From contig JAJYLZ010000001.1 in assembly GCA_021787395.1 (NCBI GenBank), positions 1 through 64,000 of the forward strand: a DNA stretch of 64,000 nucleotides. The letters run 5' to 3'. Position numbers and translations under genes: made by a program. The notes under the pieces are model-generated. The model had not been told where the DNA came from. It was given only the letters and a program-made list of their open reading frames with translations, and searched no databases. Each line of letters begins with the position of its first letter. Positions within the stretch are counted from its first letter, which is position 1. This stretch comes from Chloroflexota bacterium. GTDB taxonomy: Bacteria > Chloroflexota > Limnocylindria > Limnocylindrales > CSP1-4. Shown piece after piece: positions 49,968-61,729 of this stretch.

Positions 49968-50081
49968 CACGAAGGCCCTGGTAGCGAGGGCGAATCAGTT
50001 CGGGGCCTCGCTGATCCATCCGTTCGCGCCGCTCCCATTTCGTCGTTGAGCGCGAGCGGTCGCTCTCGACCTGCAAGGGCT

Positions 50082-50096
50082 TGTCAAGACTTGACA
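50082..50096. promoter_or_regulatory. 15-bp perfect palindrome upstream of transposition genes
   Basis: TGTCAAG-A-CTTGACA. Confidence 0.65.
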
Positions 50097-50200
50097 CGCC
50101 TGGCTGCAACCAGCACACGCGCCCATTGCTGGGTTGACGGCTAGGCACTTCGCACCCCCGTAGCGAACTGGCAAGGCGCGCACGGGGTGTGTGACCTCTC

Positions 50201-51544
50201 ATGGAACTGTCCCTGGGACGAATCCGTGAGAGAAGGGCTGCGGCGCCGAGGCACGGCAGTGCAGGCCTTCGCGCGCGGCCTTCGCCCTCACGGGCGCCGG
50301 TCCTCATCGAGGCGGGCACGCTCGCCGACAAGAGCCGGCCGGAGGAGCTCGCCAAGTTCGAGGCGTGCCGGGCCTGGGCCCAGACGGCGGGCGGTGAGGC
50401 CTGGGTCATCGCGGCCGACCTCGTGCCGCCGCGGTGGTTCCGCAACGCGATCCAGCTCCACCTCGCGAGGCTCGACTACCGCGGGGACCCGGCCCTCGCC
50501 GCGGCGATCCGCGCCCGGTGGGAGCGCGGCCGGGCCTCGATCGAGGACCTCGTCCGCGAGCACGCGGACCACCCGCGGCCGGAGGTCGTCGCCGCGGCGC
50601 GCAAGGTCATGGGCGACCTCCTGGCGGAGGGCCGGCTGGACCTCGACCTGGCGACGGTCGTCCCGACCCTCGCCACGATGGTGCGCGCCCGGCCGCGCGA
50701 CCGCGGGATCCTCGAGCCCCCCGGGGTCGTCCGCGACCCCGAGGAGCTCGTCCGGCTCGCGGCCGAGCGCGGCCGCACGGACCTGCCCGAGGACGGCGAG
50801 GCCGAGCCGAAGCCGGACGTGGACCCGGAGAGCATCGAGGACCCCGAGGCGCGCGACGAGTTCGAGCGCAGGCGGGCGGCGATGCGGGCGATCCTCGAGG
50901 GCGCCACCGCGGCCGCGGCCGCGCGCGCCAACGGCCTCGAGGAGCGGCGGGCTCAGCAGCTCTGGAACGCATACGACCAGCACGGTGCGCGGGCGCTGGT
51001 CCCGTACGCGACGCGGCGGGCATCCTGCAGGACCATGCCGCCCCCGGTCGTCTCGGCGATCGAGGAGGTCTACGCGCGGCCCGAGCGCCCGAGCCTCGAG
51101 GCCGTCGTCGACCACCCGGCGGTGCGGCAGGCCGCCATCGACGCGGGGATGCGGCGCACCCCGAGCCGCTACCAGGTCTCGAAGGCGGTGGGCGACCTCC
51201 TCAGGCGGGACCAGAAGGCGCGCGAGGCGAGGGCCGGCCGGAAGCTCGTGCCGCTCGCGCTCAGCGGCCGGGCCGTCACGGCCGAGCAGGTCCCGGGCCT
51301 CGTCTGCGAGTTCGACGAGGCCACGCTGGACGTGAAGGTCCAGGCCCTCTCCGGCGGCCGCACGACGGTGCGCATGCACATCGGCGTGCTCATCGACGTC
51401 GCGACGCGCTACCCGCTGTCCGTCGTCGTGTCGCCCAAGGCGCTCGACCAGTGGGACCTCCGGCGCGCCGTGATCCGCGCGATGCTCGACGACTCGGCGC
51501 TGCGGCTCGAGCACGGTATCCGGGAGGACTCGCCGTGGGCCTGA
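50201..51544 (+). CDS. TnsB-like DDE transposase, N-terminal part (with TnsA-C-terminus-like leader)
   Basis: First catalytic Asp region VPGLVCEFDEATLDVKVQALSGGRTTVRMHIGVLIDVATRYPLSVVVS; frame ends before the second Asp. Confidence 0.75.
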   Translation: MELSLGRIRERRAAAPRHGSAGLRARPSPSRAPVLIEAGTLADKSRPEELAKFEACRAWAQTAGGEAWVIAADLVPPRWFRNAIQLHLARLDYRGDPALAAAIRARWERGRASIEDLVREHADHPRPEVVAAARKVMGDLLAEGRLDLDLATVVPTLATMVRARPRDRGILEPPGVVRDPEELVRLAAERGRTDLPEDGEAEPKPDVDPESIEDPEARDEFERRRAAMRAILEGATAAAAARANGLEERRAQQLWNAYDQHGARALVPYATRRASCRTMPPPVVSAIEEVYARPERPSLEAVVDHPAVRQAAIDAGMRRTPSRYQVSKAVGDLLRRDQKAREARAGRKLVPLALSGRAVTAEQVPGLVCEFDEATLDVKVQALSGGRTTVRMHIGVLIDVATRYPLSVVVSPKALDQWDLRRAVIRAMLDDSALRLEHGIREDSPWA

Positions 51545-59393: not shown

Positions 59394-59788
59394 CCCCGAC
59401 ACGCGACACCCGAGGACCACGGCTCTCGACATCGGATCGCCTCGCCACGTGCGCAGTCGTCGCCCATCGCAGGGCGCGGGCGGGCGCTCGATGCCAAGAG
59501 CCCGCTCGAGGTTCGAGTCGAGGCAGGGCCGAAGCGGCCGTTCGTGAGGAGGCCGGTCGCCGTGCGGGATCCCGGCGCAGGGCCGGATGGGGTTTCGCCG
59601 GTGCCGTCCAGCGAGCGTCGGAACATCCGCGCCCTCCAAACGATCCAAACGGCGGTTGCCTTATTCGAGAACCAAGTCAAGGTGGCACTGGGCCGCGGAA
59701 GGGGTCAGCGGCCGCACCGGTAGACGTCGGCGTGCGGCGATCGTCCCAGGCGCGGAAGTCGGCGCCCGCGGCACGGGAGGACGCCGCC

Positions 59789-61360
59789 ATGGAGTTGCTG
59801 GACCAGTTCCGTGGGAGTGAGTCGGACAAGCCCAAGATCGAGTACCAGCTGGCGGAGACGTACGTCGTCATCACCGGAACTCGCGAGGTGCGACTGGACG
59901 CCTTCGACAGCGTTGAGGAGACGGACTGGGAGACGTCCGCGGCCACCGTAGCCGTCGGCGTCAGGGGTGGCCGAGACCAGACCGCGAGGCGCACCGCCTG
60001 CTTCGACAGTCCGCGGTCCGACGACTCGTTCGCGATCACCAGCACGGATGATGGGCGTCTCCAGTCCCTGACGTTCAACTCGGTCGGCTCCGGTGCGCGC
60101 GTCGTCGCCGCCGCGACGACCGTGATCGCCTACGTCGGGGGGCTCGCAGCCGCAGCCGTCGGCGGCGCGGGTTCTGTGGCCCGAACGGCGGCTGCCGCGG
60201 TCAGGATGGGCTTCGCGCCAGCGGACGCGGGGGGTGAGGTGCCCGCGACTCCCGAAGGCAAGGCCGTGAAGGCCTGGACGGAGCTCCACGGAGTAGAGGC
60301 CACGCACCGCGAAACCTACGAGGGACTCCTCGCGGAGGCCAATGCTCAGCTCCTCGCGACGCGGCAGGAGCTCGTCAGAGCGGGCGACGCGGCCGTCGAG
60401 CGAGCGGCTGCATCGCGGATCGCGAGGCTGGAGCGCGTGGCCCAGGCCTGCCAGGCCGAGATCGCGAGAGTGGACGCCCTCTACAAGGCGTGGCGCTCGA
60501 GGACGATCACGCGTCGGACGGAGACCCTGAGCTTCGAGCTCGGGATCGGTGAGCTCGAACGAGGGCCGGTCCCGATGATCCCGCCCGAGGGGAGCCAGTG
60601 CTTCGAGGCGTGGAAGGGCCTGGGCGTCCTCGTGCAGGTCGAATACGCCAGTGCCGCGGTGCGTTCGGACGACGTCAAGCTAGACGGCGCGAATGTCGTC
60701 TGCTGGCGCATTCCGAGACCGGCGGTCTTCCGCGTGTGGCGCCGCGGCGGCGACGGCGCCCCAAGGCTGGAGAGGGTGAACGCGGCTCTCGTCGTGGACC
60801 CATCGTCGGCTCTCGGCTGGATCCAGCTTGACGATCGACTGTTCGGCGAGCGCAGCGGCACGCTCGAGTTCGGGCCAATGGGAGTGCCATCGAAGCTGAC
60901 CGAGGCCGAGAAGAGCGCACTCGGGGCGGTGGCCGATGCCCTTCGTGCCGTCCCCGAGACCGCGGCAGCGGCTCTCGAGAACGCGGTCAAGACCGAGTCG
61001 TCGGCCACCGGGCTCCTCGATGCGCGGGCCCAGCATCGACTCGATGCTCTCAAACGCGACATCGAGGCCTCGAAGGCCGAACTTGATCTGAAGGGCCTTG
61101 CCGCGACAGCCGACGACTACGCCAAGCTCAAGCGACTGGAGCAGGAAGTGTCGATCGCGGAAGCCGAGGGAAGGCTGGCACCGGCGAGCGATCTCGACCT
61201 CGCGAAGCACGACCTAGAGCTTGCGGAGGCGCGCGAGGGGTTGCGTCGCCTGAACGCCGGCCTGCCCGCGGACGGGTCCGCTCTCGAGGACGAGCTCGCC
61301 GACCTCGTCGAGCGTGTGGATGCACTGGAGACGCGCGGCGGCGGTCATCGTCGGAGGTAG
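59789..61360 (+). CDS. Uncharacterised protein with hydrophobic segment and C-terminal coiled coil
   Basis: Long ORF MELLDQFRGSESDKPKIEYQLAETYVVITGTREVRL; hydrophobic VVAAATTVIAYVGGLAAAAVGGAG; C-terminal alpha-helical charged repeats. Confidence 0.7.
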   Translation: MELLDQFRGSESDKPKIEYQLAETYVVITGTREVRLDAFDSVEETDWETSAATVAVGVRGGRDQTARRTACFDSPRSDDSFAITSTDDGRLQSLTFNSVGSGARVVAAATTVIAYVGGLAAAAVGGAGSVARTAAAAVRMGFAPADAGGEVPATPEGKAVKAWTELHGVEATHRETYEGLLAEANAQLLATRQELVRAGDAAVERAAASRIARLERVAQACQAEIARVDALYKAWRSRTITRRTETLSFELGIGELERGPVPMIPPEGSQCFEAWKGLGVLVQVEYASAAVRSDDVKLDGANVVCWRIPRPAVFRVWRRGGDGAPRLERVNAALVVDPSSALGWIQLDDRLFGERSGTLEFGPMGVPSKLTEAEKSALGAVADALRAVPETAAAALENAVKTESSATGLLDARAQHRLDALKRDIEASKAELDLKGLAATADDYAKLKRLEQEVSIAEAEGRLAPASDLDLAKHDLELAEAREGLRRLNAGLPADGSALEDELADLVERVDALETRGGGHRRR

Positions 61361-61729
61361 CGCGCGCTCCGCATGGCGCGGGACCTTTTCGCGAGCTCCA
61401 GCACGTCGCGGGTCAGGGCCCAGCTGTGCTCACCTGGTAGTGGAGCGAAACCATCTGACGTTGGCCCTGTGGGTCGAAACCCTTCGCCGGGAAGCACGAC
61501 CAAGCACTAGCTCGGCGAAAGGTCAGGCCTGCGCTACCACGCCCCCCGCCCAGACGCAGGGAGACGTCCTGTCCCAGCTCTCCGGCCACCTCCTCGCCGG
61601 CTCCCGGACCGGCCCCGACGCCCCCGACCCGCGTCCGCGGTAGGCTGGTCCGGCGGGCGCAGTCCCGGATACCCGTCGCCGTGCCGGGGCGGGGCGCTGC
61701 GCCCGGATCGGGCGAAGGGAGCCGAGAGG

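Follow-up and report, generated by a model that had tools for sequence, protein, structure and literature searches.

Evidence for a decayed Tn7-like remnant of the TnsAB-fusion kind, with a tyrosine recombinase behind tniQ, in a Chloroflexota genome

A high-GC Chloroflexota bacterium carries, behind its upp gene, a run of genes resembling the core of a Tn7-like transposon with a tyrosine recombinase in the place of a resolvase. This raises the question whether these genes form one mobile element and what the recombinase would do in it. The window analysed here, a stretch of 64,000 nucleotides, comes from a 3.45-Mb draft genome in 96 contigs, and the locus lies on one contig. An earlier note on this DNA listed seven genes on the plus strand, from a TnsB-like transposase to an orphan ORF, and both the reading frames and the profile matches bear out this order. 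We favour, with some reserve, the interpretation of the stretch as a decayed Tn7-like remnant of the TnsAB-fusion kind known from Chloroflexota, with an operon tnsAB-tnsC-tniQ-XRE-tyrosine recombinase and with a helicase-nuclease gene and an orphan ORF alongside. The present copy is probably unable to move by itself. In the active element, TnsAB and TnsC would have carried out the movement and TniQ would have picked the target; the recombinase would have resolved the cointegrates of replicative transposition, as was proposed for tnsR elsewhere.

The transposase is distributed over two fragments on the plus strand. The first (50294..51540, within the ORF 50201-51544), delimited by the alignment to relatives, the start of codon periodicity and a match to HTH_28 (3.6e-5), holds the C-terminal half of a TnsA-like domain, a helix-turn-helix and the first catalytic Asp of TnsB. 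The second, in another frame (51538..52488, part of the ORF 50434-52488), was recognized by PF09299 (1.6e-9), by phmmer matches to relatives and by a phase switch, and comprises the second Asp and the Glu of the DDE site together with a Mu-type C-terminal domain. The Mu-transpos_C match exceeds its cut-off and the profile of the transposase matches the solved TnsB structures of Tn7 and of CASTs, so that the protein is a DDE transposase of the TnsB type, though its gene is broken. Full-length relatives comprise 840-911 aa and have an N-terminus with the pattern H-x-YLPD...AEAG. For one of them (L051), a model of the N-terminus (built with homologs, mean pLDDT 81) had TnsA of Tn7 as its best match among solved structures (1t0f and 1f1z, E 3e-7 to 2e-6; next match 0.17), which assigns the relatives to a TnsA-TnsB fusion family. 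The alignment of the window copy to five relatives opens at its residue ~32, corresponding to their residue ~120. The first ~120 aa of every full-length relative are thus missing, including the TnsA PD motif and the H-x-YLPD segment, and with them the catalytic TnsA nuclease that marks the TnsAB-fusion subgroup. Third-position GC is ~1.00 from ~50,330 onward, and no phase is seen before ~50,290 (start at ~50294). The stretch 49968..50293 takes the place that the beginning of the transposase gene occupies in the relatives. It has no codon-position GC signal, and the missing N-terminus was sought in all upstream frames without a match to the TnsA N-termini of the relatives. The abrupt start of homology and periodicity and the lack of an upstream match indicate that the 5' part of tnsAB is absent. 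The left transposon end was presumably lost together with it, and for this reason we speak of a remnant rather than of a transposon able to move.

The coding phase of tnsAB jumps sharply at ~51,540, inside the catalytic domain. Since the locus is on one contig of a 96-contig draft, this 1-nt shift and a second one in the XRE gene could be assembly errors; however, the ~20 conserved genes of the flanking synteny blocks are free of frameshifts, which argues against a generally poor sequence, and a 1-nt error could not cause the 5' truncation. That tnsAB is cut and that frameshifts occur while the flanking genes are unbroken was counted in favour of a decayed remnant. The earlier description as a Tn7/Tn5053-like transposon was therefore correct for the Tn7-like core (TnsB, TnsC and TniQ) but not for the integrity of the transposase, which is two ORFs rather than one gene. 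The Tn5053 part did not hold: the relatives are TnsA-TnsB fusions, and what the window has of such a gene is a remnant, both truncated and frameshifted.

The genes that follow form an operon. The TnsC-like AAA+ ATPase of the TniB family (52518..53543, plus strand) was identified by alignment and by PF05621 (2.3e-7; 30.9 bits at a cut-off of 22.4), and its profile matches a TnsC of known structure; a TnsC/TniB-type ATPase thus lies directly beside the tnsB part. The TniQ/TnsD-like zinc-finger protein (53540..54967, plus strand, ~475 aa) itself remains below the Pfam TniQ model, but the PADLOC TniQ model recognizes it (7.4e-5). Its homologs in L051 and L029, alignable to it from end to end, pass PF06527 (30.5 and 42.8 bits; cut-off 27), placing it in the TniQ/TnsD family. 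Next comes an XRE-type regulator (54964..55291, plus strand; PF13560 1.6e-8). The ORF as read extends to 55302 and is frameshifted: the phase switches at ~55130, where the other frame gives the natural continuation of the HTH (VVHLRLADALAIARALGV...). The start/stop overlaps previously noted are present, as GTGA between TnsC stop and TniQ start and as ATGA between TniQ stop and XRE start, so the operon observation holds. The reading frames of tnsC, tniQ and the recombinase are clean. As also stated before, none of the eight ORFs searched encodes a Cas-like protein and no CRISPR-like array was seen, so that the locus does not qualify as a CRISPR-associated transposon.

On the left, the locus is bordered by an unbroken upp gene for uracil phosphoribosyltransferase (49323..49967, plus strand; PF14681 5.7e-75), which is 88-93% identical in most same-genus genomes. 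Nucleotide similarity to these genomes stops at ~49968, the upp stop codon, and synteny is resumed at ~74 kb of the contig. The segment from 49968 to ~74000 is variable within the genus, and the same-genus genomes read have other genes after upp. On the right, an AKR gene (61730-62722) is located downstream of the orphan ORF. Of the 11 other genomes of the genus, a single one has it (52%), and there it does not adjoin upp. An empty site between upp and AKR, as suggested by the earlier note, is therefore not to be expected in relatives, and its right limit at 61539, which depends on AKR as a flank, receives no support from synteny. The best inverted and direct matches between the flanks are at the level of shuffled sequence, and two ends with TnsB-site repeats and a target-site duplication, as expected of a complete Tn7-like element, were not found. 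The non-coding stretch behind upp contains the palindrome TGTCAAGACTTGACA (50082-50096). We considered it as an XRE operator or as a resolution site and rejected both, given its copies upstream of dnaG in the genus. The same TGTCAAG-A-CTTGACA closely precedes dnaG both in the genome studied here (G000:C78:10192-10206) and in five other same-genus genomes, for which reason it is probably a host regulatory motif.

The tyrosine recombinase (55303..56283, plus strand, 326 aa; PF00589 3.2e-25) is XerD-like. It aligns to XerD (1a0p) over 26-314, and R166, K191, H267, R270, H293 and Y302 are all kept. Most likely it acted as a cointegrate resolvase in the former element, a role suggested by its operon with tniQ and by the published link between TnsA loss and resolvase gain. 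Counted against this role are the lack of an internal resolution site in our search, the absence of a recombinase from the corresponding position in all TnsAB relatives read, and the closest recombinase relative found (50% identity, in G100 of another genus of the family), which stands alone without Tn7 genes. The latter two observations speak in favour of the main rival, namely that an independent integrase or passenger, comprising the recombinase and the XRE gene, inserted behind tniQ and has nothing to do with Tn7-type movement. Its GC3 below that of the tns genes points in the same direction, as do the tyrosine recombinases of other elements near TnsAB relatives (beside a Tn3 transposase in L075, inside tnsC in L082). 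The ATGA overlap of tniQ and XRE and the small distance from there to the recombinase are instead consistent with a single operon, and neither att repeats nor element borders were seen around the recombinase. We regard a passenger as doubtful, yet as an explanation that has to be taken seriously. In Chloroflexales ZM16-3, a Tn3-family transposase and an adjacent tyrosine recombinase lie directly beside tnsAB (L075:1057-5081). In Ktedonobacteria brp13, two tyrosine recombinases and a third large ORF split the tnsC of a related Tn7-like element (L082:6777-12756), resembling a recombinase-in-trio insertion.

An element that is still alive would have to be explained differently: the shortened transposase would be a TnsB without TnsA, transposition would be replicative with the recombinase as resolvase, and the frameshifts would be sequencing errors. 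DDE residues across both fragments, the clean frames of the three genes named above and TnsA loss with a resolvase as a published pattern (PMC8649781) agree with such a state. The truncation point, however, lies midway in the TnsA domain, half of which is still present, the sequence upstream is non-coding and without an end-like repeat, the XRE gene carries its own frameshift, and terminal inverted repeats do not rise above chance, so that we hold a living element to be improbable. Slightly lower still we rate a TnsAB-fusion element in the course of losing TnsA and turning replicative, in which an active operonic recombinase would both resolve cointegrates and help to choose targets. The least probable reading makes the recombinase a target selector that cooperates with TniQ in the manner of TnsF of Tn6022, but with its catalytic activity retained. 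TnsF does derive from a tyrosine recombinase and is operonic with tniQ (PMC10293859), and the window recombinase likewise shares the operon of tniQ. But TnsF has N-terminal zinc fingers and no catalytic chamber, whereas the window protein is plain XerD-like with all catalytic residues, and the TniQ of ~475 aa exceeds the 400-aa mark tied to direct target choice (PMC10293859). A decayed remnant with a former resolvase thus remains our preferred reading.

Downstream of the recombinase follows a superfamily 2 helicase (56346..59393, plus strand, 1015 aa; PF04851 7.3e-24). The earlier note's helicase-nuclease of this size is supported by the profile match and by a C-terminal nuclease-like motif, GE-x-AD...H(C/A)K, in which G856, E857, A859, D860, H877 and K879 are invariant in nine homologs; judged from these residues, the motif is consistent with a nuclease of the PD-(D/E)XK type. 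Members of this family are stand-alone proteins of ~1000 aa, several of them encoded in plasmid regions rich in defence functions, with restriction, AbiE or AbiH genes as neighbours. The closest counterparts are plasmid DEAD/DEAH helicases with a C-terminal HxK nuclease-like domain such as WP_338835180.1, similar in length, alignable over the full length and with the same motifs, but with 26-29% identity and belonging to no named PADLOC system. The helicase-nuclease is likely an anti-phage defence cargo and may even now protect its host as a one-gene defence system. The orphan ORF (59732..61360, plus strand, 542 aa, with a further in-frame start more inside) has no match in Pfam, NCBIfam, PADLOC or PHROGs and one relative in the family (G044, 28%, 1.9e-24). 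We rejected the idea that helicase and orphan form one system: the plasmid homologs of the helicase that were read have no constant partner gene and the orphan homolog in G044 is without a helicase. A plasmid search with TnsC and with the orphan returned no relatives. GC3 declines from ~0.96 in tnsC and tniQ to 0.93 in the recombinase, 0.89 in the helicase and 0.83 in the orphan; recombinase, helicase and orphan may therefore have arrived separately, the cargo perhaps later.

Relatives of the TnsC are rare, with one other genome among 107 of the family and 10 others among 399 sampled in the phylum. The genome_contigs search yielded no close relatives by any single protein and nine distant ones by alignment. 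Those that can be named are mostly Chloroflexota (Chloroflexales ZM16-3, several Ktedonobacter and a fen MAG of the same family), plus one Blastocatellia MAG. Identity is about 30%, and the nearest are TnsAB-fusion elements of Chloroflexota. In a relative from the same family (G039), translations alone suggest Wadjet-type-SMC-like genes and an AbiEii-like gene beside tnsAB-tnsC-tniQ (L029:2-7188). The genome studied here contains a second, unrelated Tn7-like cassette (G000:C62, L033:3904-9055). It encodes a TniQ (PF06527 2e-17), a TnsC of the TniB family, an rve transposase of 696 aa and, upstream, a short ORF that is possibly a fragment of TnsA.

How does the locus compare with known systems? 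Tn5053 and Tn402 (TniA-TniB-TniQ-TniR) have the same series of transposase, ATPase, TniQ and site-specific recombinase. Their TniA has no TnsA-like domain and their TniR is a serine recombinase, whereas the window transposase is fused to a TnsA remnant and its recombinase is of the tyrosine family, so that it shares neither feature. The TnsAB elements of Chloroflexota (ZM16-3 L075, Ktedonobacter L076/L079/L081, fen_1066 L080) agree in the order tnsAB-tnsC(-tniQ) and in homologous proteins; they differ in that several have a full-length TnsAB, in their cargo, and in that no XRE-recombinase pair stands behind tniQ in those read. According to Benler et al. 2021, tyrosine resolvases occur in clades 2 and 3: one Tn7-like clade has them as a rule, and they are also found in the Tn5053 clade, which belongs to clade 3. 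In the same study, tnsA loss correlates with the acquisition of a resolvase of either the tyrosine or the serine type (PMC8649781). These clades (tnsR) likewise combine a Tn7-like core and a tyrosine recombinase with a missing TnsA nuclease, a likeness in gene content; in the window the TnsA part is a cut-off piece of a fusion, whereas theirs is absent by design. Should intact relatives with the same operon be found, one could examine directly whether the loss of TnsA is accompanied by the gain of a resolvase. Faure et al. 2023 described TnsF, a target selector derived from a tyrosine recombinase, in Tn6022, showed where TnsAB fusions fall in the TnsC phylogeny, and reported Tsy (PMC10293859). 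Tn6022 thus shares with the window a tyrosine-recombinase-type protein in the tniQ operon, but TnsF is catalytically dead and has the zinc-finger N-terminus that the window protein lacks. Tsy has a recombinase and an HTH gene as in the window, but no Tn7 core. By these two descriptions the kind of object is already known. The tyrosine recombinase in the resolvase position is real by its PF00589 match, but a replacement of the serine resolvase, which the earlier note implied to be new, is by itself not new: a tyrosine recombinase in a Tn7-like core is already described in other Tn7-like elements, of which the window is a degraded further example, and what it adds to the TnsAB-fusion Tn7-like elements is a decayed case from Chloroflexota.
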